Source: Sinohyriopsis cumingii
Lineage: Eukaryota; Mollusca; Bivalvia; Unionida; Unionidae
Assembly (NCBI GenBank): GCA_028554795.2
Contig: CM068842.1
Span: 21,734,590 to 21,798,589, forward strand
DNA: 64,000 bases
Direction: 5' to 3'
The translations under genes and the position numbers were made by a program. The notes beneath the pieces were generated by a model. The model had not been told where the DNA came from. It ran no database searches and saw only the letters and a program-made list of their open reading frames with translations. Positions 2,761-53,051 of this stretch are shown one piece after another. Each line of letters starts with the position of its first letter. Position 1 is the first letter of the stretch.

Positions 2761-3094
2761 AGTAGTGAAGGGGGCCACCCTACGTACAATGGGAATTAGC
2801 ATTACAGACCCCCTTGGGCAAATCTACGTACAATGGAAATTTAACATGGAGAAAAATCGTGGGCAAATCTACGTACAAGGGGAATTAACATGGGAATAAA
2901 TCGTGGGCCACTTTACCGACAAGGGGAATTTAACATGGGGAATAGAGTTTGGGCTTGTTTAGGGACAAGGGGAATGGAACATGGGATTTTTTTTTTTTTT
3001 TTTTTTTTTAAAAATTTAAAAAAAAAGGGGTAGGCAATTGAAAGGCTATCTCTTTTCGAGAAATATGGGGGCCCTGAAAAGGGCCTTTGGGTTT
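2761..3094 (+). repeat. Left terminal inverted repeat (TIR)
   Basis: This matches the reverse complement of 22971-23303. Apart from one C/G mismatch near the tip, differences are confined to the T/A tract around 2986-3026. The outer 200 bp consists of degenerate 44-46-bp subrepeats, with TACGTAC or variants at 2781, 2826, 2870, 2914 and 2960. The inner part contains an outward-facing histone-type stem-loop. Confidence 0.95.
3070..3085 (-). terminator. Histone-type mRNA 3' stem-loop in left TIR
   Basis: Read on the minus strand, AAACCCAAA precedes a 16-nt hairpin GGCCCTTTTCAGGGCC: six base pairs with a TTTC loop. CCCAT follows, then CTCGAAAAGAGATAG. This is the architecture of metazoan replication-dependent histone 3' ends (SLBP site plus U7-pairing purine element), except that the first A of ACCCA is missing. 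It lies 24 nt after the stop codon of the leftward gene ending at 3110. Confidence 0.8.
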
Positions 3095-3109: not shown

Positions 3110-3343
3110 TTAACATAAAGGACACCGCATTGGTCTTCTTCTTGTCCTTAGGCTGCGTCTCACTGTTGGCCCGTAAATCAGGACTCTTTTGAGGCATCCT
3201 TGCCTCTCCACGTAAATCCTACGTATCCACAGGCTGGTGTTTGTCCTGTGGACAACGGTCCACTTGGATCGGACATACATGAGCATGTCCGTCCTGAACA
3301 TCATGGAAGACACAAGCGTAGAAGATTGCACATCGGTCCACAT
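3110..3343 (-). CDS. Small basic protein of unknown function, left-terminal gene
   Basis: A 77-residue Arg-rich protein that I do not recognise. I call it real because it sits in a complete transcription unit. A TATAAATA box (minus strand, 3394-3387) lies about 45 nt upstream of the ATG, and a histone-type stem-loop lies 24 nt past the stop. The C-terminal third is strongly basic (clusters RRSLRTRRRP). No membrane segment or enzyme motif is visible. It is transcribed outward into the left TIR, mirroring the gene at 22358 that runs into the right TIR. An overlapping plus-strand frame (3200-3421) has no such signals. The sequence could also be a decayed gene. Confidence 0.5.
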   Translation of the reverse strand: MWTDVQSSTLVSSMMFRTDMLMYVRSKWTVVHRTNTSLWIRRIYVERQGCLKRVLIYGPTVRRSLRTRRRPMRCPLC

Positions 3344-3386
3344 CTTGAAGCGACGAGAACAGGTGAATCAATGCACGAACTGCGCT

Positions 3387-3394
3387 TATTTATA
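3387..3394 (-). promoter_or_regulatory. TATA box for the left-terminal gene
   Basis: The minus strand reads CTATAAATAAGC here, about 45 nt upstream of the ATG at 3343. Transcription starting about 30 nt downstream would give a very short leader. Confidence 0.55.
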
Positions 3395-3499
3395 GGTAGA
3401 GGTAGGATTGAAACGGATTGAATTCATTCACCAATCCAAACACGCGTTACAAAATTCAGTTACCCCTTACCCCGCATCCAATCCGAAGAGAGCAGTCTG

Positions 3500-3521
3500 T
3501 GACGTCAGTTGGTCTATATAG
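3500..3521 (+). promoter_or_regulatory. CRE/ATF palindrome plus TATA box
   Basis: TGACGTCA (3500-3507) is a perfect cAMP-response/ATF site and is followed 8 nt later by TATATAG (3515-3521). The first ATG downstream is at 3569. ATF sites next to TATA boxes are typical of adenovirus early promoters; the comparison is by analogy only. Confidence 0.6.
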
Positions 3522-3568
3522 ATTCGTTAGCGCTTGTGTGCAGTCAATCTATGCGACAGTGATTCAAC

Positions 3569-4154
3569 ATGACGGAAACTCAGAAAACGATCCATTGGGG
3601 TGCACCAACAGGGGAGACTGCCCAAGGGAACCCGGACTTACTTTCAGAAGAGTGAATTGGGATTTTGTGGATTTTCTTTCCTCGCAAAAATTTGTTCCGG
3701 AACCTTCGTTACCTTCTTCATTACCGCAAGTGGAGAATTTTAGACAGAGACAGAAAGAAGAATTGGAGAAATTTATACAACGACAAAAGGAAGCGGAACA
3801 GGCTTTTCTCCTACAGCAACAGCAGCAAGAAGAAGAGGTAAGAAAAAACAACAGCAACAACAGCAAGAAGAAGTAGCAGCAAAGAAACAAGAGGGTGAAA
3901 ATGAAACGGTCACGGTACTGTTGGACATTTTAGCGGAGTTAAGAAGTCTGAAACAAATGTATCAGACTTCTTTATCACGACCGAAGAGAATACGACCTTC
4001 CCGAGCCAAACACGTCAACCCTGTGACTAAGCCTACCGTACCACCCTTAGTGATTTCAACCCAATCATTATCATCATCATCATCAACATTACGCAGTCCA
4101 GAAGTAGGCCTTGGCCGTGGCAAAGGCTTAAGGCAGTTAAAGTTGATTGCTTAA
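3569..4154 (+). pseudogene. Frameshifted Gln/Glu-rich coiled-coil protein, element gene
   Basis: From the first ATG after the CRE/TATA promoter, frame 2 runs 28 codons to a TGA at 3653. Frame 1 then gives a plausible stretch (NWDFVDFL, then a Glu/Gln/Lys-rich coiled-coil ending in poly-Gln at about 3837). Frame 0 continues poly-Gln and then a Ser/Pro-rich tail to the stop at 4152-4154. The second break falls at an A6 run (3843-3848), so each break looks like one missing base rather than an intron; the GTAAG at 3838 has no acceptor in phase at a workable distance. A histone-type stem-loop starts 28 nt after the final stop. Function unknown. The breaks could be real decay or homopolymer sequencing errors. 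Confidence 0.55.
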
Positions 4155-4181
4155 ACTCACCCCTACACCATAAAGAAAAAA

Positions 4182-4222
4182 GGCCCTTTTCAGGGCCACC
4201 CACATTTCTCGAAAAGAAATAC
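4182..4222 (+). terminator. Histone-type mRNA 3' stem-loop and U7-like element
   Basis: An A-run leads into the hairpin GGCCCTTTTCAGGGCC (4182-4197), exactly a 6-bp stem with a TTTC loop. ACCCA follows directly (4198-4202), then a purine-rich CTCGAAAAGAAATAC (4209-4223). Every element of a histone 3' processing site is present at normal spacing, and no AATAAA is seen between the stop at 4154 and this site. Confidence 0.85.
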
Positions 4223-4444
4223 AATTTCAATTTGCCAATAACTCAAAAAAAAACCACCCATTTTACCCCTATAGTACGTGTCTTTGTATGAGTGCGTGAG
4301 TGTAGCTTCTTATTTTAAAATCAAAACTCAAAGACACTTACCTTATATCATTCATTTTTTCTTTTATCCATTGTTGCAATCCAATTCACAATTCACAACA
4401 CAACACTTTAATTAAAAGTTCATTGACTTCTTCTGTCTCCTTGT
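4223..4444. other. Intergenic AT-rich spacer between convergent genes
   Basis: No gene is seen. TTTAAT near 4407 would read ATTAAA on the minus strand and could be a weak poly(A) signal for the zinc-knuckle gene. Confidence 0.4.
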
Positions 4445-5049: not shown

Positions 5050-8000
5050 ATGAAACGATCCTATTCATTCGAGAAGAAAGAAGAAGAAAGTAAGAGGCAG
5101 AAACGTGATCTATCGCCTCTAACCAGGGCTGAAATCTTGGCACAAATTCATGCCAGTGATTTTGAAGAGGACATGAGTGAACCAGAATTTGAAACCTCTA
5201 AACTAAGTTCACCACCCTTAGTCAACCCTGAAAAGTACTATTCCATTCGAGAGACGGAAAAGCGCTCCTCTAGAAAATTTGGAACCACGGCTTACAAATA
5301 CACGGTGAAGTTTAAAGATTTCAAGTCCGAAGTACCGTTAGAGAAAGCAGAAGTGTTTATCACTGGGGTGTGGGATTCTCTGCTCACTTCACTCAAGCGA
5401 CAATGTCAACCCAAAGAAGACGATCGCTTGAGACTTTCCATACAGCACGACGGTTTGAAATCCCCTGTTTGGATCGAGTTTAGCACCCCTGCAGAATTGA
5501 CTGCTTCCAAAGTCATGGACAAGATTCAACACGTACAACAATTTAATGATCAGTTTGACATCACCGATGGTAAAGCCACACTGGACATGACCCACGTCTC
5601 TCCTCCTCAAGGGACTGGACGCAAAAAGATGTTATTGGTGGACGACCTTCGCAACACCAAAACAAGTCTCGTCCGAATTCACAAACTTCATGACCAGATG
5701 TGTTTAGCCCGTGCCATCGTGGTGGGGCGAACCTATGCCAACAAGAACGACACGGTAGAATGGAAAAGAACCTGGAACACTATTCAACGATCCGATCGAG
5801 CCAAACAACGAAACGAAGCAGAACTCCTGTTGCAACAAGCTGGCCTGTCCAAAGACACACCCTGTGGCATTCCTGAGATGCAAAAATTGCAAGATGCCCT
5901 AGCTCCACGCTACACCTTGAAAGTGCACCCTCAAGAAATGCGCGGGCCTCTGTTGTTTCGAGGCCAAGATTTTAAGGACGGAAAATACATTCATGTTTAT
6001 TATCACGATGACCATTTCGATACGATTACCACTATCACTGGATTCCTGGGATACAGTTATTACTGTGAGAAATGTGACCATGGTTATAATAATCGAGAGC
6101 AACACAAGCATTGTGGATGGAAATGCCCAGGATGTTTGGCCTCTCCACCCTGTCTGAGCGAAGAACCAGTGCCTTGTTCAACTTGTCTGCGCACGTTTGT
6201 CAGCCCTACCTGTTACCAACAACATCTGAAGACGCAAGGTTCACAGAAGAAATGTGCTTGTCAACTGCTGAGATTGTGCCCTACGTGTGAACAAGTGATA
6301 CGTACCAATAATACCAAGGCACACGTATGTTCAGGAAAGAAAAAATGTCACATTTGTCACCACATCGTGGACTTGGAACACCAATGTTACGTGCAAAAAT
6401 ACCAACCCCCACCAGAGAAAGAGGACAGTCACAAGAAGAAAGGCAATTTCATCTTTTTCGATTTCGAACGCATGCAAGAGACCGGCATTCACATTCCTAA
6501 TTTCTGCGTGGCTCATCGAGCGTGCGAGAAGTGCATTCAAGAACCTATCTTCAGTCATTGCCCTCACTGCAGCAAGATTCCTGGAGGGCGTGAAAAAATC
6601 TTTCGGGGACCGAACACGTTAGCCTATTTTGCCCAATGGGTCTTAGACCCCGTCGACAAGACGTGGAGCCAAGAGGACATCGAACGTTACGGAGATTGTC
6701 ATCATCATGCCACGGTGATGGCTCACAATTTCTCCGGATACGATGGACAGTTTCTTTTGAGGTACTATGCGGAACAAGGCACCGAGCGTCCTAAAGTGAC
6801 TTTGAACGGAGCCAAAATCATTTTCATGCAAGTGGGACAAGTGCAGTTTAAAGATTCGATGAGTTACTTGGCCATGCCTTTGAGTCGAATGCCTAAAACG
6901 TTTGGAATGACAGAAATGGCTAAAGGGTACTTTCCACACTTTTTCAATACGGAAGCCAATCAACACGCCGTTCTACCCCATTTACCTGAGGCTCACTATT
7001 ACGACCCCGACAACATGCGTACCGAACAACGAGAAGCTTTCTACGCTTGGTACCAGGCTCACGCCTCTGACCCTTTCGACTTTCAGGAAGAAATGCTAAA
7101 GTATTGTCGTTCCGACGTGGACATTTTACGGCGTTGCTGTGGAAAATTTCGAGAACTGTTCATGGAACACGGAGGGGTCGATCCTTTGAAAGAAGCTTGC
7201 ACCATTGCCAAAGCGTGTTCCTTAGTGTATCGACAACGATTCATGCCTGAAAACACCGTGGCTGTCATCAGCCCTCAAACGACCCACTATGTCAAGCGTC
7301 AATACTCGGTCAAAGCCCTACGTTGGTTACATTACTTGTGCGACAAGGAAGACAAGTGGATTCAGCATGCCCGCAACGGAGGGGGTGAAAAGACCATCGG
7401 AACGTATTCGGTCGATGGCTGGGACTTAGAAAACCCCAAGATCGTGTACGAGTTTAACGGTTGTTTATTTCACGGATGTCCCGTCTGTTACCCTGACCGT
7501 GGCACTAAAAATCAGTTTTTGCAACGAACCATGGAAGACTTGTACCAGGACACTTGTCAGCGGCGCCTAAAGTTAGAACAGCAAGGATACCAAGTGGTGG
7601 AAATGTGGGAACACGAGTACGATCACCGTATGAAAACCGATCCCGAGTTTAAACACCTCGTGGAAAGTTACCAGTTCATGGACCCGCTGAACCCGAGGGA
7701 TAGTTTGTACGGAGGAAGGACCAATGCCACCTGTTTGCTGTACCAAGCCGACGAAGAGAAAGGAGAAGAAATCAAATACTTGGACGTGTGTTCGCTGTAT
7801 CCCTACGTGTGCAAATATTGTCGCTTTCCTGTAGGGCACCCGCAATTGCTGACGGAACACATCGACCTGAAAAACATTCGACAATACGAAGGCTTGATCA
7901 AGTGTAAAGTTTTGCCTCCCACGAACCTATACCATCCCGTCTTACCTCACCATTGTCAAGTCAAACTGATGTTTCCCTTGTGCCGTACTTGTGCCGAAAC

Positions 8001-9111
8001 GTGCAACCAAGACCAACCTTGCCAACACAGCCAGGAAGAACGGGCCTTGACGGGGACCTGGGTCAGCGTAGAATTGTTCAAAGCTCTGGACATGGGATAC
8101 CAACTGTTAGAAGTGTACGAAATTTGCCACTTTCCCAAGACACAACAATACTGCAAGGGTGACCCTACTCAGAAAGGCATTTTCGCAGACTACGTGGATG
8201 CCTTTTTGAAACTGAAGCAAGAAGCCAGCGGCTATCCTTCCTGGTGTCACACTCCCGAAGACCAAATAAAATTCAAAGAGAAATACTACGAACAAGAAGG
8301 CATCACTTTAGACCACATCGAGAAAAACGAAGGCAGGCGATCGTTTGCCAAAGTGATGTTAAATTGCTTGTGGGGTAAAATGGCACAACGACCGTGTTTA
8401 CCCAAGACGGAATATTTGACAGAACCTTCCCGCTACTTCCAGATGATTCACGACAAAACCAAATACATGAAACACGTGGACGTCGTTCGAGAGAATTTGA
8501 TCTTGGTCAATTACGAAGAAGATCTGGACTTTGTACAAGACGACCCTTTTGGAAATGTCATCATTGCGGCTTACGTGACAGCCCATGCTCGCTTAAAATT
8601 GTACGAAGCTTTAGAACTGTTAGGGGAACGCGTCCTGTACTTTGACACGGACAGTTGCATTTACATCCATCACCCGATTCAACATCACCCTAACATCGAA
8701 GGAGACCGTTTAGGAGCCTGGACAGACGAGCATCCCGACGACAAGATTCTAAGTTTCGTCAGTGGCGGTCCCAAAAATTACGGCTACGAATACCGTGACC
8801 AACAAGGAGAAGTGCACACGACGTGCAAAGTGAAAGGACTGACTCTGAATTATCGTACCAGTCGTGTGGTCAACTTTGGGGTATTGAAAGAAGCCTTGCA
8901 ATCGGGAGAGGATGGAAACTTTCAAGTGACCACCTATCAACCGAACAAAATTGTACGTTTACCCACTCACCACATCGTCAGTCGACCCTTGGAAAAAGTC
9001 TATCAAATTGTATACCAGAAGCGAGTTCGACTTCCCAATCATTTCACCTTACCGTACGGTCACGTCGGTATTGGTCTGTATATAAAAAGGAACCCTAGGC
9101 AAGATCGATAG
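5050..9111 (+). CDS. polB: Protein-primed family B DNA polymerase
   Basis: 1353 residues. It replicates the element's linear DNA using a terminal protein as primer. The exonuclease domain shows ExoI FFDFE (about residue 470), ExoII HNFSGYDGQF (about 558) and ExoIII YCRSDVDIL (about 684). The polymerase domain shows motif A LDVCSLYPYV (Asp about 912), motif B KVMLNCLWGK (about 1101) and motif C YFDTDS (Asp about 1199). A Cys/His-rich zinc-binding stretch lies at about 340-450. YEFNGCLFHGC at about 800 is typical of Polinton polymerases. The frame is uninterrupted and the catalytic acidic residues are all present. The TATA box of the next gene lies inside its 3' end. Confidence 0.97.
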   Translation: MKRSYSFEKKEEESKRQKRDLSPLTRAEILAQIHASDFEEDMSEPEFETSKLSSPPLVNPEKYYSIRETEKRSSRKFGTTAYKYTVKFKDFKSEVPLEKAEVFITGVWDSLLTSLKRQCQPKEDDRLRLSIQHDGLKSPVWIEFSTPAELTASKVMDKIQHVQQFNDQFDITDGKATLDMTHVSPPQGTGRKKMLLVDDLRNTKTSLVRIHKLHDQMCLARAIVVGRTYANKNDTVEWKRTWNTIQRSDRAKQRNEAELLLQQAGLSKDTPCGIPEMQKLQDALAPRYTLKVHPQEMRGPLLFRGQDFKDGKYIHVYYHDDHFDTITTITGFLGYSYYCEKCDHGYNNREQHKHCGWKCPGCLASPPCLSEEPVPCSTCLRTFVSPTCYQQHLKTQGSQKKCACQLLRLCPTCEQVIRTNNTKAHVCSGKKKCHICHHIVDLEHQCYVQKYQPPPEKEDSHKKKGNFIFFDFERMQETGIHIPNFCVAHRACEKCIQEPIFSHCPHCSKIPGGREKIFRGPNTLAYFAQWVLDPVDKTWSQEDIERYGDCHHHATVMAHNFSGYDGQFLLRYYAEQGTERPKVTLNGAKIIFMQVGQVQFKDSMSYLAMPLSRMPKTFGMTEMAKGYFPHFFNTEANQHAVLPHLPEAHYYDPDNMRTEQREAFYAWYQAHASDPFDFQEEMLKYCRSDVDILRRCCGKFRELFMEHGGVDPLKEACTIAKACSLVYRQRFMPENTVAVISPQTTHYVKRQYSVKALRWLHYLCDKEDKWIQHARNGGGEKTIGTYSVDGWDLENPKIVYEFNGCLFHGCPVCYPDRGTKNQFLQRTMEDLYQDTCQRRLKLEQQGYQVVEMWEHEYDHRMKTDPEFKHLVESYQFMDPLNPRDSLYGGRTNATCLLYQADEEKGEEIKYLDVCSLYPYVCKYCRFPVGHPQLLTEHIDLKNIRQYEGLIKCKVLPPTNLYHPVLPHHCQVKLMFPLCRTCAETCNQDQPCQHSQEERALTGTWVSVELFKALDMGYQLLEVYEICHFPKTQQYCKGDPTQKGIFADYVDAFLKLKQEASGYPSWCHTPEDQIKFKEKYYEQEGITLDHIEKNEGRRSFAKVMLNCLWGKMAQRPCLPKTEYLTEPSRYFQMIHDKTKYMKHVDVVRENLILVNYEEDLDFVQDDPFGNVIIAAYVTAHARLKLYEALELLGERVLYFDTDSCIYIHHPIQHHPNIEGDRLGAWTDEHPDDKILSFVSGGPKNYGYEYRDQQGEVHTTCKVKGLTLNYRTSRVVNFGVLKEALQSGEDGNFQVTTYQPNKIVRLPTHHIVSRPLEKVYQIVYQKRVRLPNHFTLPYGHVGIGLYIKRNPRQDR
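9081..9088 (+). promoter_or_regulatory. TATA box for the BIR gene, inside the polB 3' end
   Basis: TATAAAAA is embedded in the last codons of polB, about 60 nt before the next ATG. Confidence 0.6.
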
Positions 9112-9143: not shown

Positions 9144-9887
9144 ATGAATACTTTCAAAGAGACATCGTTCCAGTTTGGGGATTGTAAAAAAGTTGTATCT
9201 TTCTCTAGTGTGACTAATACTGGATGGATAAGACCCAGGCATTGCGACGGAAAATGTCCGGAAGGAAACTGCGATTGTCCATATGGTTACCATTGTAATT
9301 GCGTAACGGAGTTTGCAGACGAGTGCGATTGTGAGCCTTGCGATGGATACGATTCTGTACGTTGTGACCTGAGCGATGCCGTAAAGCATCATGGGAACTT
9401 TAGTGTCCCTACCCCTATCATGGAAAGTGATGCTGTGCGTGTCATACCTGAGGGATGCGAAAGTGATGCCGCTCGTCCTCTTGGACATTTTACTGGGTTT
9501 CGTTTTAAAGGGGAATGTTCACCTTCACGTTTACCTCCCTACGGATGTCATCCAGCCCTGAGCAAACCCCTACCCATGTCACTCAACCCTCATCGAAACG
9601 AACCTGTGAAAGACGAATATTCGTTTCCTGTGCGTTTGTCGGAATACTGCGACTTTGAAAATTGTCTTCAATCGTTCAAAGGAAAATGGCCTAAGTATCT
9701 GGGAGGACCGACCCCCGAAGAATTAGCCAGAGCCGGATTTTTCTACTTGGGCGAAGGAGATAAAGTCAAGTGCTTCAGTTGCGGTGTGTCACTTCACCAC
9801 TGGGAACCGCAAGATTCGGCCTACGTAGAACATGCTCGATGGTCACCGAATTGTCATTACTTACCCTTAGTGGGACCGAGACATTGA
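9144..9887 (+). CDS. BIR-domain (inhibitor-of-apoptosis-like) protein
   Basis: 247 residues. The C-terminal domain has the exact BIR zinc pattern C210-X2-C213-X16-H230-X6-C237, preceded by a conserved GFFYLGEGDKVKCFSCG core. IAP-family BIR domains bind caspases or pro-apoptotic peptides; DNA viruses of invertebrates often carry host-derived copies. There is a single BIR and no RING finger. Residues about 30-75 form a separate Cys-rich region (CPEGNCDCPYGYHCNC) that I cannot assign. Its position directly after polB, with its own TATA box, suggests an independent transcript. An anti-apoptotic role is inferred from the family, not shown. Confidence 0.9.
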   Translation: MNTFKETSFQFGDCKKVVSFSSVTNTGWIRPRHCDGKCPEGNCDCPYGYHCNCVTEFADECDCEPCDGYDSVRCDLSDAVKHHGNFSVPTPIMESDAVRVIPEGCESDAARPLGHFTGFRFKGECSPSRLPPYGCHPALSKPLPMSLNPHRNEPVKDEYSFPVRLSEYCDFENCLQSFKGKWPKYLGGPTPEELARAGFFYLGEGDKVKCFSCGVSLHHWEPQDSAYVEHARWSPNCHYLPLVGPRH

Positions 9888-9915: not shown

Positions 9916-10371
9916 ATGGATACTTTACAAGAGAACATTCGTGCTTTGCCTGTGGAGTTGAGAGAACGCATTTACCGAGAGCTGGTCAAAATACAAGTGA
10001 AACGTAAAGAACAATTGCATCCGTTACGTCACCGGTGTTTGAACCACTGGTACCTGAAGGCTATACAAGGATTGATTCAATTGAAAGTGTTCCATCTAAC
10101 AGACATTGATCAACGATCCTCTAGTTTTAAAAAGGATTGGTTTGGTATGGACGATTGTAGTTACATCATTGTAAACGTACTGCATCGAATTCCAGAGGAA
10201 GAGTTAACGAATTACCAACATCTTGAACACAATGTCAACTTATTGAAAGAGGAAACTTCTGAACGAATTGTAATGTGTAGATTAGTGACTCAACGATTTA
10301 AATTCGACACTGAAGTGAAACCATGTTTGTGCAAAGAGTACATTTCTTGTGTCAGACCAAAGAGGATTTAG
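9916..10371 (+). CDS. F-box-like repeated protein, copy 1
   Basis: 151 residues. The N-terminal segment LPVELRERIYRELVKIQ resembles the start of an F-box helix bundle; F-box proteins recruit targets to SCF ubiquitin ligases. The match is only a short motif, so the assignment is tentative. The rest is not recognised. The first ~40 codons are nearly identical in the two genes that follow, so this is the first of three tandem duplicates. Copies 1 and 3 also share a diverged body (HWYLKAIQGLIQ / HWYLNGIRELIR). Confidence 0.7.
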   Translation: MDTLQENIRALPVELRERIYRELVKIQVKRKEQLHPLRHRCLNHWYLKAIQGLIQLKVFHLTDIDQRSSSFKKDWFGMDDCSYIIVNVLHRIPEEELTNYQHLEHNVNLLKEETSERIVMCRLVTQRFKFDTEVKPCLCKEYISCVRPKRI

Positions 10372-10383
10372 TATGACCTATTC

Positions 10384-10656
10384 ATGGATACTTTGCTAGA
10401 GAACATTCGTGCTTTGCCTGTGGAGTTGAGAGAACGCATTTACCGAGAACTGATCAAGATACAAGTGAAACGCAAACTCAAAGTGATTCGTCCGTTTTTA
10501 AATTATGCTATGTTCCAAAGTACAAGAAGACTGATTATGAGTGGATATTACATTAGGCACAAAGTTAAACGAGGCTATTGGCCACCACCCAACGGTTCCA
10601 AAAACAGTGTATATACTTATGGATACTTTACAAGAGAACATTTTGGGCTTGCCTGA
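10384..10656 (+). CDS. F-box-like repeated protein, copy 2 (short)
   Basis: 90 residues. The first ~30 residues match copies 1 and 3; the remainder diverges (Lys/Arg-rich, Tyr-rich) and stops early. The 3' end overlaps the start of copy 3 by 38 nt in another frame, as expected of an unequal tandem duplication that truncated this copy. It may be decaying or may act as a short variant. Confidence 0.6.
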   Translation: MDTLLENIRALPVELRERIYRELIKIQVKRKLKVIRPFLNYAMFQSTRRLIMSGYYIRHKVKRGYWPPPNGSKNSVYTYGYFTREHFGLA

Positions 10657-11137
10657 GGAGTTGAGAGAAAGGATTTACCGAGAGCTGGTGAAAATACAAG
10701 TGAAACGTAAAGAACAATTGCATCCGTTACGTCACCAGATCTTTAAGCACTGGTACCTGAATGGTATAAGAGAACTGATTCGTCAGAAATTGTTTCAGTG
10801 GTCAGACCTTGTTCAATACTTCCAGGCCCCCGATGATCCACGTGTTGATCATTTTGGTTACTTCGAGATTCACCTAGAGCAACCCATTGAGGAAGACGAG
10901 GTAAAGGATTACCAACATATTTTCCGTGGAATCTACTTAGCGGAAGAGGAAACTTCTAATCGAAATCTGAAGTTCAGGTTACAGTATGCAAGATTTACAT
11001 TCCCAACTGGAAAACGAACATCACTGGCTAGAAAGTACGTGTGTTCTTTTCGAAACAAAGAGACTATAAAAACAGGCTGTTATGCCACGACTTATGTCGT
11101 ATGTAATCCAACAGATTCCGTGGAAGGAACTCAATGA
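10619..11137 (+). CDS. F-box-like repeated protein, copy 3
   Basis: 172 residues from ATG 10619. I chose this ATG over the in-frame 10541 because it begins the MDTLQENI block shared by all three copies and follows a GTATATAC TATA-like box at about 10608. It carries the same LPEELRERIYREL motif and a longer C-terminal region related to copy 1. A TATAAAAA (11065-11072) lies inside its 3' part and would drive the next gene. Confidence 0.7.
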   Translation: MDTLQENILGLPEELRERIYRELVKIQVKRKEQLHPLRHQIFKHWYLNGIRELIRQKLFQWSDLVQYFQAPDDPRVDHFGYFEIHLEQPIEEDEVKDYQHIFRGIYLAEEETSNRNLKFRLQYARFTFPTGKRTSLARKYVCSFRNKETIKTGCYATTYVVCNPTDSVEGTQ

Positions 11138-11619: not shown

Positions 11620-11827
11620 AAGACCCTTTCGGGAGGACACTTGTGTGACCTTACTACCCCCTACTATAGAACTGGTTAGAACATTACCCAAAACATGTTG
11701 TTGTACAGACACTTGTGTTTATTCCACGTTAATGGTTATCATGTGCCTTTTATCCTTGTACTTAAGCCTTTGGCTTTTATGTATTTTTGTCTTTCGTATT
11801 CATGTTTGTAAAAAAAACATTCAATAA
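11516..11827 (+). CDS. Small single-pass membrane protein, overlapping gene
   Basis: 103 residues from ATG 11516, in a different frame from the end of the preceding gene. The N-terminal half is Pro/Glu/Val-rich. After a Cys cluster (KTCCCTDTC) comes a strong hydrophobic helix (residues about 70-95, LMVIMCLLSLYLSLWLLCIF) and a short basic tail. The TAA stop is embedded in AATAAA (11822-11827), so stop codon and poly(A) signal coincide. Function unknown; a virion or host-membrane protein is possible. Confidence 0.55.
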   Translation: MHESCSRKKVTFLPVLVTVPEEPVTQNGTVVDRPERPFREDTCVTLLPPTIELVRTLPKTCCCTDTCVYSTLMVIMCLLSLYLSLWLLCIFVFRIHVCKKNIQ

Positions 11828-11843
11828 ACGTGTTCTGAAAAAG

Positions 11844-11851
11844 TATATAAA
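11844..11851 (+). promoter_or_regulatory. TATA box for the ATPase gene
   Basis: TATATAAA lies 47 nt before ATG 11898. Confidence 0.65.
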
Positions 11852-11897
11852 CTCTTGTCTTGTTTGTTTTCGTGTCACAAGTGACATTTCTCACACC

Positions 11898-12641
11898 ATG
11901 GCTACCTCTACTGTCTCTGCTCCCTCTTCCTCTACTGTCAAAGTCATCGACGAACACTTAGATCGTGCCAGTTGGGAGGCTTTGTATCTTCGCCATCCCT
12001 TTAGCATGCTCATTGCTGGACCTAGCGGTTCTGGCAAAACCGAATTCGTCAAACGTTTGATCGAACATAAACATCATTTGATCGATCGGCCACCTCAACG
12101 GATCGTGTGGTGTTACAAAGAGTGGCAATCGGCGTACAGCCTCTTGCGAGAAAGTCAAGGCGATTCCATCGTGTTTGTGGAAGGCATTCCTAAAGAAGAC
12201 GACGGCATCGTCTCTGACTCCCGTCAAACCCATTTGGTCATTTTCGACGACATGTTAGGAGAAGACGAAGAAGAAATTAAATTGTGGTTCACGCGCAAAG
12301 GGCATCACCGTAATGCCAGTTTCATTTACATCACCCAAAATTTGTTTCAACAAAGTAAAGCCCATCGTACCATCAGTCTCAATGCGCATTACGTGGTCTT
12401 GTTTAAAAGCCCTCGAGATAAATCGCAAGTGCAAGTCTTAGCCAAACAGTTAGGAACGCCTTGGCTGACTCAGGCGTACGACGATGCCACTCAAACGCCA
12501 CACGCCTATTTACTCGTCGATTTGAAACCTACGACCCCCGAGGATTTGCGATTTCGTACCCACTTGTTTCACCACTGGTGCCAAGACGGAGGGCCTGTCC
12601 TGTACACGTCTCCGTCCTCGACTTCATTTCACTCCCCATAA
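11898..12641 (+). CDS. A32/FtsK-HerA-type genome-packaging ATPase
   Basis: 247 residues from ATG 11898; upstream in-frame ATGs lie before the TATA box. Walker A is GPSGSGKT (residues 41-48) and Walker B is LVIFDD (Asp117-Asp118). It is followed by a sensor-like stretch FIYITQNLFQQ, in which the Gln/Asn after the strand is typical of this family. These ATPases pump viral DNA into preformed capsids. Length and motif spacing fit Polinton ATPases. The frame is intact. Confidence 0.95.
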   Translation: MATSTVSAPSSSTVKVIDEHLDRASWEALYLRHPFSMLIAGPSGSGKTEFVKRLIEHKHHLIDRPPQRIVWCYKEWQSAYSLLRESQGDSIVFVEGIPKEDDGIVSDSRQTHLVIFDDMLGEDEEEIKLWFTRKGHHRNASFIYITQNLFQQSKAHRTISLNAHYVVLFKSPRDKSQVQVLAKQLGTPWLTQAYDDATQTPHAYLLVDLKPTTPEDLRFRTHLFHHWCQDGGPVLYTSPSSTSFHSP

Positions 12642-12696: not shown

Positions 12697-13650
12697 ATGA
12701 CGTCCCTTCAGTCGCATCTTCCCGTCAAATTGATTCGTGCCTTGTATGGCATCAGTCGAGAAAAAAATCCACAAACACGAGCTCGTGTCTTTGAAGCTAG
12801 TCTCAAAGAAGTCTTACGATGGTTCACGGTGACGGCACGTCAAATACTCCAAGGAATCATTCAGATTCCTCATCAAACCCAACGCTTTTTCGATCGAAAC
12901 AAAGTCGCTTTGGTCCAACTGGCCGATCCCCGCATCGACACTCAAACCAAAAAACAAATCATTTTGAAACCTGGAGGGAGCGGTACTCTAGGAGGGGTCA
13001 TCATTCGCTCACTCTTAAGATGGGATCCTAATGCCCCCAAAGTTATCCCCAAGACAAAAGTCCAACGAAGCCCCAAGAAGAAAAAGAAAAAGACCAGGTC
13101 CCCAAGAAGAATAACTTCTCCAGTGGCAGGACCCTCCTCTTACCAGACACCACCCCGGAAAAAGAAAAGAAGCCCCCAGAAAAAGAAACAGAGAAAAAGT
13201 CCTCAGAAAAAGAAAAGTACACAGAAGAAAACTAGTCGCAAGAGAGGCACTTCGGCCAGGACGCAACCTTACACTCGCAAACCACGACCTGCCACAGCGG
13301 TGACTGCGTCTCCGGCAGCCTCACGTTTGTCCACTTCTCCGTTGATGTCACCAGGAACTGAAGAGTACTTGGAGACGTTGATCACACCAAGAACTTCTCC
13401 GTTGATGACCCCCAAAAGAACTTCCCCAGTGGCAGGACCCTCCAATTTAGCGGCAGTGGCTGCTGCTCACAAAGTACCTTCTCCCAAAATCAAAGTCCAT
13501 GAAAGATCGGGTATGTTACAAAGTTTACTGGATTTGTCCAAGCAAGAACTGACTCGATTTAGTCCGTTGCGTACCCCTGCACGACGTGTCATGCCTGTCC
13601 TCAAACTGATACGACGTAAAGATTATCAGTGGCGACGCGTTCCAGTATAA
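12697..13650 (+). CDS. Lys/Ser/Pro-rich basic protein, probable DNA-binding core protein
   Basis: 317 residues. The N-terminal ~110 residues are helical and ordered-looking (PVKLIRALYGISREKNPQTR) and end in a Gly-rich KPGGSGTLGG. The remainder is low-complexity, with repeated SPKKKKKK and SPQKKKQRK patches like histone H1 tails and TSPVAGPS occurring twice. Such composition suggests condensation of packaged DNA, but this is inference. The TAA stop (13648-13650) is embedded in a TATAAAAA box for the next gene. Confidence 0.7.
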   Translation: MTSLQSHLPVKLIRALYGISREKNPQTRARVFEASLKEVLRWFTVTARQILQGIIQIPHQTQRFFDRNKVALVQLADPRIDTQTKKQIILKPGGSGTLGGVIIRSLLRWDPNAPKVIPKTKVQRSPKKKKKKTRSPRRITSPVAGPSSYQTPPRKKKRSPQKKKQRKSPQKKKSTQKKTSRKRGTSARTQPYTRKPRPATAVTASPAASRLSTSPLMSPGTEEYLETLITPRTSPLMTPKRTSPVAGPSNLAAVAAAHKVPSPKIKVHERSGMLQSLLDLSKQELTRFSPLRTPARRVMPVLKLIRRKDYQWRRVPV

Positions 13651-13653
13651 AAA
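13646..13653 (+). promoter_or_regulatory. TATA box overlapping a stop codon
   Basis: TATAAAAA includes the TAA stop of the gene before, 41 nt upstream of ATG 13694. Confidence 0.6.
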
Positions 13654-13693
13654 GACCTGTGACCAAGTCGGGGTATCAGTGAACTTGTAAAAG

Positions 13694-13882
13694 ATGTCAC
13701 CTCCAAGAAGCCACAAAAGAAAGAGACAAAGGCAAACGCGTCATCCGACAAAGCGCTTAGCCAAGCATCGACGTTACCCTAAGAAAAGACACAGTCGTTC
13801 CAAGAAAAAGAGGCGTCAACAAAGGGGAGGATTCCTTGGCGATTTTGGGAAGAACATTGTCACCTTTATGACAAAGCGATAG
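13694..13882 (+). CDS. Small Arg/Lys-rich core-like protein
   Basis: 62 residues, about half Arg, Lys or His, followed by RQQRGGFLGDFG and a short hydrophobic end. The layout of basic body, RGG, then hydrophobic tail is that of adenovirus core protein X precursors. The next gene has the same layout with a better pX-like tail. It probably binds packaged DNA. Confidence 0.65.
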   Translation: MSPPRSHKRKRQRQTRHPTKRLAKHRRYPKKRHSRSKKKRRQQRGGFLGDFGKNIVTFMTKR

Positions 13883-15126: not shown

Positions 15127-16236
15127 ATGGAAAAAGTCTTAGCCAGCATTTACTACGATCCCTCGCATCCTGCAGGTTACGCAGGAGTTCAAAAATTGTA
15201 TCGTGCTGCCAAAACGCGACTGAAAAGTCTCCGTTTACCTCAAGTGCAACGATGGTTACAAGAACAACCTACCTACACTTTACACAAACCCATTCGACGC
15301 AAGTTTGCCAGAAGTCGCACCCGAGTGGAAGGCATCGATCATCAATGGCAAGCCGATTTAGCCGATGTCTCTCATTTGGCCAGCTACAATCGTGGTTACA
15401 AATATTTGTTTTGTGTCATCGACGTCTTTTCCAAATTTGCCTGGGTCGTGCCCTTGACTTCCAAATCGAGCAGCGAGTTAGTGCGAGCCCTGCAACGGGT
15501 GTTGAAACAAAGCGGTCGTCACCCTCTTCGATGACAAACGGACAAAGGCACCGAATTTCTGAACCAAGCTTTCCAAAAAGAATTAAAGAAACGTGACATT
15601 CATTTTTTTACCACCGAGAATCCCGAAACCAAAGCCAGCATCGTGGAACGTTTTCAACGCACTTTGAAAGAACGCATGTGGAAATATTTTACGCATCACC
15701 ACACTCTGAAGTACATCGACATCTTACCGCACCTGGTGCAAGCGTACAACCAATCTTACCATCGAAGCATCGGACGTGCCCCGCAAGACGTGACTCCCGA
15801 CAACGAAGTGCTGGTGTTTGAACGCCTGTTCGGTACGTACCCGACGAGGGCTGTCCCCAAGAAAAGTGGAGAGTTGACCGTAGGAGATTGGGTGCGCATT
15901 GGCAAAACCAAACGCACTTTTGACAAAGGTTACTTACCTAACTGGACGACCGAATTGTTTCGCGTCACTGGACGAGTGTATGGCCGTCATCCTGCCGTCT
16001 ATAAATTGGAAGACATGAACGGAGAAGTGCTCAAAGGAACGTTTTATTTGCCCGAGTTACAACGTGTCACCAAAAAAGAAGACGACGTGTACGACATCGA
16101 AAGCATTCTCGAACGCAGAACCCGTAAAGTGGGCAAACGACGTGTCAAAGAAGTCAAAGTACGTTGGAAAGGATATCCACCCAGTTTCGATTCTTGGATC
16201 GACGCTTCGCAAGTCATCGACTATAAAAAGAAGTGA
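15127..16236 (+). pseudogene. Retroviral-type integrase with chromodomain, one in-frame stop
   Basis: The rve-family integrase inserts the element's DNA ends into the genome. Catalytic residues are visible: Asp77 (WQADLADV), Asp139 (QTDKGTEF) and Glu174 (ASIVERFQ), close to the DD35E spacing. A C-terminal chromodomain-like segment (YDIESILERR and VRWKGYPPSFDSWID) probably targets chromatin. TGA at 15532-15534 (codon 136) interrupts the frame three codons before the second Asp. Reading frame and sequence quality are otherwise perfect on both sides, so this is a single substitution. As it stands the protein would lack the second and third catalytic acids, unless the stop is read through or is an assembly error. 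Confidence 0.92.
16222..16229 (+). promoter_or_regulatory. TATA box inside the integrase 3' end
   Basis: TATAAAAA lies 13 nt before ATG 16242, in the last codons of the integrase. The gap is short, so it may serve the penton gene (16649) or give a near-leaderless transcript. Confidence 0.4.
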
Positions 16237-18042: not shown

Positions 18043-19356
18043 ATGATGCACCGAGAGTCATGCGCCTGTTCCAAGACGGAACTGGATATGTTTGCCATGC
18101 CTCCCACCATGATGACGATGCAAGAATCCCAGTGGGTGGAATTTCACCCCGTCTCCTCATTGACAGCCTCAGCTCCCATCGAGTTTGAAATCAAAGGACA
18201 GCCCGAAGATTACATCGATCTGAATAGCAGTTACTTGTACTTGAAAGTCAAAGTAACCGAAGCGAACAACGATCCCATAGACAATAATGATGTAGTAGCT
18301 CCGGTCAACAATTTCATGCATTCCTTGTTTAGCGAAGTGGACTTGTACTTGAATAACAAACTAGTCAGCAGCAGCATGGATACTTACCCTTACCGAGCCT
18401 ACCTGGAGAATCTCTTGACGTATGGAATAAACGCAAAGGACACTCATCTGGATGCTTGCGTGGTATGGAAACCTGACCTAGCGAATAAGTTCAACACTAT
18501 TGTACTTGCTACGGATGCTTCACATTCAAAGGGATTTGTAGAACGACGAGCGAAAATTGCTGGAAGTCGTAGTTTAGAACTGATGGATCGTTTGCATTTG
18601 GACATGTGGTTGCAAGAAAAGTATTTGCTGAACGGGGTGGATGTCCGCCTGAGACTGAATCGCAGCAGTGCCGCTTTCCATTTGATGGCTGATGCTGATG
18701 CCACTTACAAAGCCATCATCCAAGAAGCCAGACTTTACGTGCGTCGTGTGGAAGTGTTGCCTAAAGTAGGTAACGACATCAGTCAGACGTTGAGCAGAAC
18801 GACCGCCAAGTATCCGATCCGACGCGTAGAAGTGAAAACCTTCACCATTCCTGCTGGACAGCGATCCATGATCGAAGATCATCTGTTCCAAGGACAGTTA
18901 CCCAAACGTTTGATTGTTGGTATCGTCAAGAATTCAGCTTTCAATGGAGTCTACAGCGAAAATCCTTTTGAGTTTAAGCATTACATTGTGTCCAAGATTG
19001 AAGTCAGTCGCGATGGCAAGACCTTGTGTACCCGACCTTTCGAGCCTAACTTTACCCAGAACAATTACTTGAGATCGTACTTTTCCCTGTACGAAGCTAC
19101 CGGACAGTTAGGAACCAACACCAGTCACGGTATTAAGTACGACGATTATACAGGAGGCTATGCTTTGTGGGCTTTCGATTTCACTCCAGACCAAGGCAGC
19201 GACGAGGGACATTTCCACCCTATAAAATCAGGCCAAATTCGTGTGGAACTTCAGTTTACTAATGCTCTACCAGACACGGTGAACGTCCTCCTGTATGCAG
19301 AATTCGATAATACGATAGAAATCAACAGTTTGAGAGAAGTCATTCTAGATTACTAG
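18043..19356 (+). CDS. Major capsid protein (double jelly roll)
   Basis: 437 residues. The frame opens 24 nt earlier without an ATG, so I choose ATG 18043, which follows a run of A. Family signatures are WVEFHPVSSLTASAPIEFEI, then EDYIDLNSSYLYLKVKV near the N-terminus and a C-terminal GQIRVELQFTNALPDTVNVL strand ending EIN. The fold builds hexon-like trimers of the icosahedral shell in Polintons and adenoviruses. Length fits and the frame is intact, so this copy could still specify capsid protein. Confidence 0.93.
   Translation: MMHRESCACSKTELDMFAMPPTMMTMQESQWVEFHPVSSLTASAPIEFEIKGQPEDYIDLNSSYLYLKVKVTEANNDPIDNNDVVAPVNNFMHSLFSEVDLYLNNKLVSSSMDTYPYRAYLENLLTYGINAKDTHLDACVVWKPDLANKFNTIVLATDASHSKGFVERRAKIAGSRSLELMDRLHLDMWLQEKYLLNGVDVRLRLNRSSAAFHLMADADATYKAIIQEARLYVRRVEVLPKVGNDISQTLSRTTAKYPIRRVEVKTFTIPAGQRSMIEDHLFQGQLPKRLIVGIVKNSAFNGVYSENPFEFKHYIVSKIEVSRDGKTLCTRPFEPNFTQNNYLRSYFSLYEATGQLGTNTSHGIKYDDYTGGYALWAFDFTPDQGSDEGHFHPIKSGQIRVELQFTNALPDTVNVLLYAEFDNTIEINSLREVILDY
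19221..19228 (+). promoter_or_regulatory. TATA box inside the major capsid 3' end
   Basis: TATAAAAT about 140 nt upstream of ATG 19362. Confidence 0.4.
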
Positions 19357-19871: not shown

Positions 19872-20432
19872 ATGGATACCTGGGAACTTTATTACCTTTT
19901 GAACCACAGTTCGTATACGCCTTCTTGGAATCCTGTCGTCTGTGCTAAAGATGAACTCCCTCATCGCAAACCTAAAGACCATCAAGCTTACGTGATCAAC
20001 ACGGACGGCAGTCATCTCCCAGGAACCCACTGGGTAGCCGTCTACTTTCCTCAAGAAGGATGTGTGGAATATTTCGATTCGTACGGATTGCCCCCTTTGG
20101 AAGACGATATCATTGACTTTATGAGAAGAAATGCTCAAACCACCCGATTCAATAACGTGAAATTGCAAGGCACAGATTCCTTGGTGTGTGGACAGTACTG
20201 TGTGTATTTTCTGCATCATCGCAGCCTGGGCTATTCCTTAGAACATTTAGTGACTCATTTTGGTCCTCGTTCTTCTTCAAGAAATGATGCGAAAGTAGAT
20301 CAATGGTTTTGTGACCATTATGCTTATCTTTTGTCTCAAGCTAGGAAACGTAGTGTCCATCAATGGCCTAATGATTTCCAACAGTGGAAATCACAATTTC
20401 ATTCACAACGTTGTCAGCCCTGTTCAAAGTAG
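19872..20432 (+). CDS. Adenovirus-type maturation cysteine protease
   Basis: 186 residues; C5/ULP1-like fold. The catalytic set can be placed by adenain spacing: His53 in GTHWVAVYF, Asp69 in VEYFDSYG, Gln99 in LQGTDS and Cys106 in LVCGQYC. Gln to Cys spacing is 7, as in adenain. It would process capsid and core precursors during maturation. The frame is intact. An AATAAA signal lies 111 nt downstream. Confidence 0.93.
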   Translation: MDTWELYYLLNHSSYTPSWNPVVCAKDELPHRKPKDHQAYVINTDGSHLPGTHWVAVYFPQEGCVEYFDSYGLPPLEDDIIDFMRRNAQTTRFNNVKLQGTDSLVCGQYCVYFLHHRSLGYSLEHLVTHFGPRSSSRNDAKVDQWFCDHYAYLLSQARKRSVHQWPNDFQQWKSQFHSQRCQPCSK

Positions 20433-20675
20433 ATTGCCAAATGAGAAAAAATGTTTGTGATTACAAAAAAATTGTTTGATGTTATATTGTTGCATTATTG
20501 TTAAAAATGTTAGAGTTGTTGTTTAGTGTTAAGTGATTTTTGAATAAAAAATGTTGTGTTTTGAAAAAAATGCCTTTGTGGTTTGTTTAGCTATAAGAAT
20601 GTTGGATTGATGCTCTTTCATTTCTTACTATCCCTCTCATGACACTCACTGAACGTTGCGACTCGAAAACCGTGT
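20433..20675. other. 3' untranslated and intergenic region with poly(A) signal
   Basis: AT-rich. AATAAA (20543-20548) is followed by a GT-rich stretch, the usual layout of a cleavage/polyadenylation site, so the protease transcript is probably polyadenylated. No gene seen. Confidence 0.6.
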
Positions 20676-20714
20676 GGGGGATGTTTTCCTTCACGTCCGC
20701 GCTTTGACTTTAAG
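20676..20714 (+). promoter_or_regulatory. Shared promoter motif, copy 1
   Basis: GGGGGATGTTTTCCTTCACG, continuing TCCGCGCTTT (20676-20705), then a weak TATA-like TTTAAGA. The 30-bp block recurs upstream of the next two genes. Confidence 0.7.
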
Positions 20715-20768: not shown

Positions 20769-21122
20769 ATGTGCTCCAAACTAGCTAAACTCAACGAAGC
20801 CTACGTGAATTTGCATAGGGTCAGACACAGTCTGATACCGAAGCCAGAAGAAATAGAAAATGTGAGAATGTTAAAAATCACTGAAGACCTGATAGAAGAA
20901 CTCTTCAGGGAAGAAATGAACAGGGAGAAAGAAGAATGGACAGAGAAGTATAGACTTCAGAGACAGCAACAGCAACAACAACAACAACAGCAGCAACCTG
21001 AAGCTGACAGAGGCTTTGTCGATTGTCGTATCGACACCAAAGAGTTCTTCTTCTCTTTCCGAAGAAGCAGACCTATCGCCAGAAAGTCTATCCTCAGAGG
21101 ACATCGCATTCTTAGAAACTAA
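20769..21122 (+). CDS. Poly-Gln coiled-coil protein, right-end gene 1
   Basis: 117 residues from ATG 20769. The N-terminal half is charged and helical (ITEDLIEELFREEMNREKEEW), followed by an 11-residue Gln run, then a short basic C-terminus. No family recognised. The frame ends 30 nt before a histone-type stem-loop. A second frame over the last 100 nt encodes a Ser/Glu-rich stretch (SLSEEADLSPESLSSEDI) that also looks protein-like but runs through the stem-loop, so a lost base here is possible. Its layout resembles the broken left-end gene at 3569. Confidence 0.6.
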   Translation: MCSKLAKLNEAYVNLHRVRHSLIPKPEEIENVRMLKITEDLIEELFREEMNREKEEWTEKYRLQRQQQQQQQQQQQPEADRGFVDCRIDTKEFFFSFRRSRPIARKSILRGHRILRN

Positions 21123-21152
21123 AAAAGAATGCCATAGCAAACAAAAAAAAAC

Positions 21153-21191
21153 AGCCCTTTTCAGGGCTACCCAATACTCTAGAAAAGAAAT
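21153..21191 (+). terminator. Histone-type mRNA 3' stem-loop and U7-like element
   Basis: Hairpin AGCCCTTTTCAGGGCT (21153-21168): six pairs, TTTC loop. ACCCA follows (21169-21173), then CTCTAGAAAAGAAATA (21177-21192). The closing G-C pair is A-T here. It is preceded by an A-rich leader. Confidence 0.85.
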
Positions 21192-21192
21192 A

Positions 21193-21518
21193 ACGATCGA
21201 TTTGCCAATGTGTGTAGGTAGAGTAGTGTGAATATAAACACTAACTCTTTTTTCATTGTGTGAGGGTATGTGTTTGTGTGTTTGTAAGTGCTCACGTACG
21301 TTGGTGTGGATAGTAGATTAAAATCATGTTTTTTGGTGTTAGAGGTGTATATTTGGAGTTAGATTTGATTGCTTTGCGTATGTAAATAGTCTATTGAAGT
21401 GATTTATAAAAAATTTTAAAATAGTGATGGGTAGCATAAAAAGTGAGTGTTTCTTTTAGGTCCGCGCGTTGTTGTTGTTTTTTGGTCATGATCTAGGTAA
21501 GAGGAATTTTATGTTTTT
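21193..21518. other. Intergenic region, part duplicated downstream
   Basis: The first ~70 nt after the stem-loop (GATCGATTTGCCAATGTG and onward) are repeated after the next stem-loop. The later part contains TCCGCGCGTTGTTG (about 21462) and CTAGGTAAGA (about 21493), which also recur at 22219 and 22241. No gene seen. Confidence 0.5.
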
Positions 21519-21614: not shown

Positions 21615-21923
21615 ATGAACACCAGAATTGTGAAACTGTTAGAACTCCAGATGCACCTGGAATATGCCAGGCGCATAGTAAACGAACTATCAGCGGAGGC
21701 TATCGTAGAAGAAGCAAGAATAAAGAAGGAGGAGGAGGAGAGAAGAGAGAGGGAAGAAGAGGAAAAGAAAATAGGAGAGAGGATGTCATACAATATTCCC
21801 GAGACAGAGGATTGGGGTGCTGAAGCGAATCATCCCGCCTCTGCACTCTCAAGACAAAAAGTAAAAAGAGACTGGAATCAAAGATGCGTGTGTGGCGCCA
21901 GGCCAGGAAGGTGCAACCATTAG
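21615..21923 (+). CDS. Charged coiled-coil protein, right-end gene 2
   Basis: 102 residues from ATG 21615. A helical N-terminus (MNTRIVKLLELQMHLEYARR) leads into a long Glu/Arg/Lys coiled coil, then a Trp-containing segment and a C-terminal Cys pair (RCVCGARPGRC). It is not recognised. It sits in the same cassette as its neighbours, with shared promoter motif upstream and histone-type stem-loop 31 nt after the stop. Confidence 0.6.
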   Translation: MNTRIVKLLELQMHLEYARRIVNELSAEAIVEEARIKKEEEERREREEEEKKIGERMSYNIPETEDWGAEANHPASALSRQKVKRDWNQRCVCGARPGRCNH

Positions 21924-21953: not shown

Positions 21954-21992
21954 AGCCCTTTTCAGGGCTACCCAATACTCTAGAAAAGAAAT
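21954..21992 (+). terminator. Histone-type mRNA 3' stem-loop and U7-like element
   Basis: Hairpin AGCCCTTTTCAGGGCT (21954-21969), ACCCA (21970-21974), then CTCTAGAAAAGAAATA. Together with the following ~70 nt it is a near-identical duplicate of 21153-21260. Confidence 0.85.
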
Positions 21993-22357: not shown

Positions 22358-22804
22358 ATGCCAGCAGCTTCAGCTTTATACAACGATCTTATTGGAAGTT
22401 GGTATTGGATGGTGGATGGATTGAGTGTAGTAGAAAGGGTTGAACAGGAATGGAGGTATGCAGTGACAAAAGACTTCGTCTCAAGACAAGTAACCAGCCT
22501 CCACTTATCCGTAAATATTGTAAAAGAAATGATAGAGGATGAGGAGAAGAGAATCAGATGTTTAATTAACCCACCGTATGTCAAAGTGGGTAAGTTAAAA
22601 GAAGCGATAGATCATGTGACGAGTGCAAGGTGCTTTCTAGAAGACATTGTAAAATGGACAGATTGGTGTTTCGCGAAGTGGGGGTTAGAAAAACTTAAGA
22701 AAGCGGAAGAACTAATGAGGAATGTGCTGACCGAAGAGGTCAAGAAGATCAAAGAAAAGTGGTCAAAGGAAAGAAAAGAAGAAGAAAATAGAAAAAAAGG
22801 ATGA
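22358..22804 (+). CDS. Helical protein, right-end gene 3
   Basis: 148 residues, Trp-rich in the N-terminal half (DLIGSWYWMVDGL) with a highly charged helical C-terminus. Function unknown. The stop at 22802-22804 lies directly after an A7 run. Another frame continues from there with a plausible Trp/Lys-rich sequence (22830-23018), but that frame stops only beyond the stem-loop, which a cleaved histone-type mRNA would not contain. So either the 3' UTR is ~175 nt or a base has been gained at the A7 run. Confidence 0.6.
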   Translation: MPAASALYNDLIGSWYWMVDGLSVVERVEQEWRYAVTKDFVSRQVTSLHLSVNIVKEMIEDEEKRIRCLINPPYVKVGKLKEAIDHVTSARCFLEDIVKWTDWCFAKWGLEKLKKAEELMRNVLTEEVKKIKEKWSKERKEEENRKKG

Positions 22805-22970
22805 ATTCGAAAAACTGAACACAAACTGGATGAAAATCCAAGAGAAGTTCCGGGCCATGGGCCACCCGGACTGGCTGCCGGAAACAGAAAAGAAAAAGAA
22901 GAAAGAAATAATAGACAAAATAAGAGGATGGTGGAAAAAGTTAAGAGTTAAAAGAAGAAGAAGAAGAAAA

Positions 22971-23303
22971 AACCCAAAGGCCCTTTTCAGGGCCCCCATA
23001 TTTCTCGAAAAGAGATAGCCTTTCAATTGCCTACCCCTTTTTTTAAAACTTTTTTTTTTAAAAAAAAAAAAAAAAAATCCCATGTTCCATTCCCCTTGTC
23101 CCTAAACAAGCCCAAACTCTATTCCCCATGTTAAATTCCCCTTGTCGGTAAAGTGGCCCACGATTTATTCCCATGTTAATTCCCCTTGTACGTAGATTTG
23201 CCCACGATTTTTCTCCATGTTAAATTTCCATTGTACGTAGATTTGCCCAAGGGGGTCTGTAATGCTAATTCCCATTGTACGTAGGGTGCCCCCCTTCACT
23301 ACT
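22971..23303 (-). repeat. Right terminal inverted repeat (TIR)
   Basis: The reverse complement matches 2761-3094. It ends CACTACT at 23303, directly followed by CATACA of the microsatellite. Confidence 0.95.
22979..23015 (+). terminator. Histone-type mRNA 3' stem-loop in right TIR
   Basis: CCCAAA, then GGCCCTTTTCAGGGCC (22979-22994), then CCCAT and CTCGAAAAGAGATAG. The 5' flank CCAAAGG matches the histone consensus. It is a mirror copy of the left-TIR site and faces outward. Confidence 0.8.

Positions 23304-31240: not shown

Positions 31241-53051
<21,811 letters not shown>

Follow-up and report, generated by a model that had tools for sequence, protein, structure and literature searches.

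Histone-type mRNA 3′ processing sites very probably end small end-proximal genes of a bivalve Polinton

Small genes near the ends of a complete Polinton in Sinohyriopsis cumingii (genes A, B, C, D, and E) very probably terminate in working replication-dependent histone 3′ processing sites of the host's own form, and the element's messages are probably finished by the S-phase histone machinery of the host. The evidence consists of the sequence, structure, and placement of the sites, their match to the histone genes of the host, their retention in diverged copies, and one site in another Polinton. The kind of signal is known; that a virus-like element places it on non-histone genes is new to our knowledge.

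The element spans positions 2761 to 23303 (20.5 kb) of the window, by which we mean the whole 64-kb stretch of DNA that was analyzed. Its earlier identification as a Polinton was borne out: a polymerase, an ATPase, an integrase, a capsid candidate, and long inverted repeats are present (Table 1), as in Polintons/Mavericks (adintovirus-like). CATACA lies immediately outside each end, within a TACA-type repeat (microsatellite), and is consistent with a 6-bp target duplication rather than proof of one. The closest named relatives of the polymerase are from oysters. The capsid assignment was made through a homologue only (P0235, which matches a double jelly roll domain at E 1.5e-7), and a relative of both integrase parts in another Polinton contig (L005) exceeds the rve cut-off. 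The product of a gene at 19872-20432 gave no match in Pfam or PHROG; we tentatively read it as a Ulp1-type cysteine protease.

Table 1. Positions of the Polinton's repeats, genes, hairpins, and associated motifs in the window
Feature	Position	Strand	Remarks
Left terminal inverted repeat	2761..3094	.	334 nt, 97%; hairpin E at inner end
Hairpin E	3070..3085	-	3′ of gene E; Histone3 32.2 bits (gathering score 34)
Gene E	3110..3343	-	77 aa
Gene A, last open frame	3957..4154	+	65 aa
Hairpin A	4182..4197	+	3′ of gene A; GGCCCTTTTCAGGGCC, six pairs, UUUC loop; Histone3 41.2 bits
Purine-rich downstream element of A	4211..4219	+	GAAAAGAAA
TGCC block	4233..4236	+	+35 behind hairpin A
Family B DNA polymerase	5050..9111	+	DNA_pol_B_2, E 3.7e-41
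BIR (inhibitor of apoptosis) protein	9144-9887		Directly behind polymerase
Packaging-type ATPase	11802..12641	+	Pox_A32, E 5.3e-7
Integrase, two frames	15127..16236	+	rve 30.7 bits (cut-off 32.6) and chromo above cut-off
Major capsid protein candidate	18043..19356	+	No Pfam match of its own
31-nt promoter-side motif, gene B	20675..20705	+	Upstream
Gene B	20769..21122	+	117 aa; no Pfam family above cut-off
Hairpin B	21153..21168	+	3′ of gene B; outer pair A-U; Histone3 31.0 bits
31-nt promoter-side motif, gene C	21518-21548	+	Upstream
Gene C	21615..21923	+	102 aa; copies elsewhere in genome
Hairpin C	21954..21969	+	3′ of gene C; outer pair A-U; Histone3 31.7 bits
31-nt promoter-side motif, gene D	22266-22296	+	Upstream
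Gene D	22358..22804	+	148 aa as it stands
Right terminal inverted repeat	22970..23303	.	334 nt, 97%; hairpin D at inner end
Hairpin D	22979..22994	+	3′ of gene D; Histone3 32.2 bits

No histone family was found by Pfam among the five products of genes A to E. These products are non-histone, and the signal would therefore be used outside the histone family. The 31-nt motif is common to the upstream regions of B, C, and D and is absent from the other 14 of the 17 compared. In genes A (3570-4154) and D (22358-23018), related-looking protein stretches occur in more than one frame, with changes in A-rich runs; decay, sequencing error, or splicing could be the cause.

The site behind gene A was described in the earlier note as a 16-nt hairpin with six pairs and a UUUC loop, preceded by an A-rich flank and followed by ACCCA. 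All of these are present at 4182-4202, with an A-rich run on the 5′ side of the stem and ACCCA at 4198-4202. The purine-rich stretch placed about 10 nt further on was found as GAAAAGAAA, which starts 13 nt past the stem and 8 nt past ACCCA. A search with Infernal cmscan against all of Rfam matched Histone3 (RF00032) at 4177-4221 (41.2 bits, E 9.6e-9), above the gathering score of 34. This match and the detailed agreement with the host histone genes described below uphold the reading as a histone-type signal.

Four more Histone3 matches were found in the window, at 3046-3090 (minus strand), 21148-21193, 21949-21994, and 22974-23018, with 31.0 to 32.2 bits (E 7e-6 to 2e-5); A alone exceeds the gathering score. 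Up to E 10, the 64 kb contained no further match. The earlier claim of five copies, all correctly oriented and just behind reading frames, holds in full for A, E, B, and C, whose hairpins follow the last stop by 27, 24, 30, and 30 nt; hairpin D is likewise on the strand of its gene, but at a gap of 174 nt (counted from same-strand frames of at least 60 aa). Of all strand-positions in the element, 1.7% fall outside such frames at a distance of 15 to 40 nt from a preceding stop on the same strand. The longer gap behind D may arise because the frame is shorter than its three database relatives (148 aa here versus 184 to 195 aa). Hairpin D additionally lies inside an unrelated 62-aa frame.

The five sites are not independent of each other. 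They fall into three sequence types: A, the near-identical copies B/C, and the inverted-repeat pair D/E. The stem is followed by ACCCA in A, B, and C and by CCCCA in D and E of the window. The outer pair, the sole variable pair of the stem, changes from G-C to A-U on both sides in B/C; this covariation is statistically weak, being one pair that was matched by 47 of 500 shuffles. Folded singly, the five hairpins and the one from L005 all adopt the stem-loop predicted for them, with energies of −9.0 to −11.4 kcal/mol and z of −1.7 to −3.1. GAAAAG stands at +13 after the stem in A, B, and C and at +12 in D and E, and the chance of GAAAAG in a 3-position window is 0.0026 at the element's own composition. 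A further block, TG[CT]C, stands at +33 to +35 behind all five. Pairing with a human U7 5′ end, used in place of that of the host, did not exceed chance: it was equaled by 110 to 279 of 1,000 letter shuffles and by 192 to 610 of 1,000 random 30-mers of the element. AATAAA within 400 nt was seen behind none of A to E, once behind the protease-like gene, and not behind the polymerase, BIR, and capsid genes, so that poly(A) signals divide the gene classes uncleanly.

Searching the host genome with Pfam Histone gave 662 candidates, of which 150 were scored, and located tandem histone arrays with a spacing of about 8.27 to 8.29 kb. Two repeat units, L097 and L098, each carry H3, H4, H2B, and H2A, and we read the 201-aa protein before the fifth hairpin of L097 as histone H1. 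Each unit has five Histone3 sites (35.0 to 39.4 bits). In L097, GAAAAG follows the stem at +13 or +14 in all five histone genes, and TG[CT]C is found at +34 to +36 in four of the five. The hairpin starts 27 to 35 nt past the stop in four host core histone genes, compared with 24 to 30 nt for A, B, C, and E. The stretch behind the host H2A hairpin is like that of the Polinton down to a TTTGCC block. Judged by sequence, the Polinton signal follows the host's own form, second downstream block included. The TG[CT]C block at about +35 (L097:3985-4050; window 4198-4247) may be an additional component of the processing or termination signal; we know of no description of it in the literature.

Searched with Histone3, the genome that contains the window (2.9 Gb, 1,138 contigs) gave 589,472 loose candidates, 75 of which were scored and taken with about 1.5 kb per side. 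All 75 lie above the Histone3 cut-off, 69 of them at 42.6 to 45.6 bits. They are a sample and not a ranking: the idea that they are the best-scoring sites of the genome was dropped, as the host histone sites (35.0 to 39.4 bits) are absent while six sites at 34.5 to 36.5 bits are listed. Proteins of this Polinton were found in 75 of 75 scored loci by tblastn (E ≤1e-4) and core histones in none. By place, 29 of the sites lie behind E, 24 behind A, 12 behind D, and 9 probably behind D (with gene C upstream), and 1 could be assigned to the right end only. Across these loci, 140 hairpins with a purine element were counted (72 being the finding sites), whereas five letter shuffles yielded 2.4 on average; two of the 140 look accidental. 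The A-run of the purine element falls at +13 or +14 in 136 of the 140, and ACCCA is present in 112. The detector demands the second pair and the closing pair, and the constancy of these is uninformative.

To avoid selecting for the hairpin being counted, retention was assessed at genes whose own hairpin had not retrieved the locus and whose 3′ side lay within it. Behind gene E, a six-pair hairpin was present in 22 of 23 cases, with identical 16 letters in all 22. Behind gene C, 16 of 20 had six pairs and 19 of 20 had five or more; in 18 of these 19 the hairpin starts 27 to 39 nt past the point where the protein match ends, and in the other one 61 nt past it. The matched parts of the C proteins are 36 to 96% identical. 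The single case of gene D had none. On its own strand, the neighboring zinc-knuckle gene ZK was followed by a hairpin in 0 of 27 cases (five pairs in 1 of 27), and on the opposite strand in 23 of 27, as gene A, which converges on ZK, would lead one to expect. For the other genes the counts were 0 of 2 (protease-like), 0 of 2 (g161), 0 of 1 (integrase), and 1 of 1 (polymerase). The polymerase case is the rearranged locus L069, with the hairpin 1.8 kb behind the polymerase piece in nearly 2 kb searched; polymerase pieces run both ways in this locus, and the other strand bears an extra hairpin. The same genes thus keep their hairpin in copies that have diverged.

Protein-level constraint acts on gene E: summed dN over summed dS is 0.10 for 18 distinct open copies, and dN is below dS in 149 of the 149 pairs used (open full-length copies only). 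Around hairpin E, in loci retrieved via hairpin A, identity is 0.93 in the 5′ flank, 0.93 in the purine element, and 0.94 in the TTGCC block, against 0.62 to 0.84 between and beyond; the set was chosen by the exact 16 letters, which builds in a stem identity of 1.00, and the flanks alone were used. A second set, offset by 4 nt, was left out. A conservation table of hairpin-chosen loci is biased and was not relied on.

The comparison was extended to eight other Polinton contigs (L002 to L009) from bacterial genome bins. These encode Polinton polymerases though filed under bacterial genomes, i.e., they are eukaryotic contamination of bins or assemblies. The earlier note had proposed a covariance-model scan over other Polintons as a check, and its outcome was divided: L005 has a Histone3 site (35.8 bits), but the other seven contigs have none. 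The histone-type site is therefore not universal among Polintons, or not at the parts seen; L002, L003, and L006 hold mostly core genes, and in L004, L007, L008, and L009 about 2 kb or more lies beyond the matched genes. L005 shares with the window a related polymerase (38% identical over the best segment), protease-like gene, capsid, and integrase and, weakly, a penton-like gene (E 0.006). Its site follows a C2H2 zinc-finger gene of 89 aa, starting 28 nt past the stop, and lies close to an array of CCATTGTCC repeats that may be the end of the element. When the L005 site is compared with those of the window, the unchanged positions belong mainly to the hairpin, to AA preceding it, to CCC following it, and to AAAAGA. 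Hairpin patterns searched in IMG/VR returned 0, 0, and 1 contig, the last with a bare hairpin (21.3 bits) that has no downstream part; polymerase and capsid searches there confirmed no relative.

How else might such sites have come about? The IMG/VR contig illustrates that a bare perfect hairpin does arise by chance, but the Histone3 matches, the copies in every scored locus, the hairpin-independent test, and the excess over shuffles speak against chance, and the genome-wide copies led us to reject it. A DNA-level inverted repeat, such as a protein-binding or replication site that merely resembles the histone hairpin, would suit the two copies within the terminal repeats. It is nevertheless very improbable, given that orientation is fixed behind genes and that the single-stranded loop, the flanks, and the purine element at fixed spacing match the host histone genes. 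Somewhat less remote, yet still unlikely, is a captured relic, in which an ancestral element acquired a host histone gene's 3′ end, whose pieces have been passed on unused ever since. The likeness to the stretch behind the host H2A hairpin, down to the TTTGCC block, fits such a history, and because all copies belong to one repeat family, part of what their letters have in common reflects descent. Against an unused relic stand hairpins that persist behind gene C across its range of protein identity, identity that is highest at the functional parts and lower between them, placement behind five separate genes with the outer pair altered on both sides in B/C, and the same arrangement in the distant L005. 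Capture as such is a different matter: because the stretch behind H2A is similar, working sites may also have originated from the 3′ end of a histone gene.

A further alternative accepts histone-type processing as real and places its benefit elsewhere than in S-phase timing, in compact ends before the inverted repeats or in poly(A)-independent expression. Two of the five hairpins do lie at the inner ends of the inverted repeats, facing outward, and we hold this possible, if clearly the less probable account: A, B, and C lie away from the repeats, and the known function of the signal, in passages of PMC5011920, includes coupling to S phase.

For working histone-type sites, then, we propose the following sequence of events. 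The pre-mRNA would fold into the 6-bp hairpin, which would be bound by host SLBP, and the purine element 13 nt behind the hairpin would pair with host U7 snRNA. The RNA would be cut about 5 nt past the hairpin and would carry no poly(A) tail. Hairpin-ended messages would be produced and translated chiefly during S phase, with the other genes using ordinary ends, and the hairpin in each inverted repeat may stop outward transcripts inside the element. The probable benefit is S-phase expression of the end-proximal gene set, with clean termination at the inverted repeats as an alternative or an addition. We infer the use of SLBP and U7, the cleavage, the lack of poly(A), and the S-phase timing from the analysis; S-phase coupling and non-polyadenylated mRNA are what the established biology of histone mRNAs would predict. 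Passages in PMC1924863 and PMC5011920 describe such hairpins as bound by SLBP, the downstream element as base-pairing with the U7 snRNP, RNA ends 3 to 6 nt past the hairpin in C. elegans, and expression tied to S phase. Passages of a bivalve study (PMC6210712) report that histone mRNAs carry the hairpin and that some of them also have purine-rich elements. Beyond this one element, we lean modestly toward the view that more than one animal Polinton lineage took over the histone mRNA 3′ end pathway for end-proximal S-phase genes, in a host dialect that includes TG[CT]C at about +35.

The Polinton sites share with the metazoan replication-dependent histone mRNA 3′ end (RF00032) the six-pair hairpin, the four-base loop, the A/C-rich 5′ flank, the ACCCA-type cut site, the purine-rich element at +13, and the short gap from the stop. 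In these features they match the ends of the H3, H4, H2A, H2B, and H1 genes of the host. Unlike in those, the genes that carry the signal are non-histone, and unlike in described Polintons/Mavericks, the end-proximal gene set here has histone-type 3′ ends. According to passages in PMC12819152, no protein-coding transcripts of animals other than S-phase histone mRNAs lack poly(A), and bracovirus histone H4 is a case of a virus interfering with host histone expression. The bracovirus encodes a histone protein, whereas the Polinton carries a histone RNA signal on non-histone genes. Word searches for stem-loop, stem loop, SLBP, hairpin, and polyadenyl in a review of viral histones (PMC9145170) gave no match, and histone-type 3′ ends in Polintons were not found by word search in PMC11071296, PMC11071308, or PMC8097293. 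Among the matches listed from the open-access literature (titles and starts of abstracts), there was no report of such ends in Polintons or other viruses.

If the reading is true, these genes would be the first non-histone protein-coding gene class, and the elements the first virus-like elements, to depend on SLBP and the U7 snRNP. By copying this ending, a virus-like element could couple its genes to DNA synthesis in the host while encoding no switch of its own. If so, the genes would escape poly(A)-selected RNA libraries, and the activity of such elements in animals may be underestimated.

Several minor observations concern other parts of the element. GACGTCA-type and CCAAT/ATTGG motifs occur upstream of A/E (3344-3569) and, in L005, upstream of the zinc-finger gene (L005:7850-8000); CCAAT and GACGTCA-type boxes are common in histone promoters. 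The LxCxE (Rb-binding) motif has two matches across all six reading frames of the element, and no hairpin-ended gene contains either of them. At 12697-13882, two very basic proteins with lysine/arginine runs and SPKK-like motifs are encoded, and no histone-type hairpin follows them; the first has no Pfam family above cut-off, and we read both as resembling DNA-packaging core proteins. A tandem gene family at 9916-11137 comprises three consecutive frames with a common N-terminus of about 30 residues (MDTL.ENI...ELRERIYREL.KIQVKRK); the two frames scanned are without a Pfam match. Outside the element, the window contains two long minisatellite arrays of 27-bp units, at 36738-40011 and 55795-56736.
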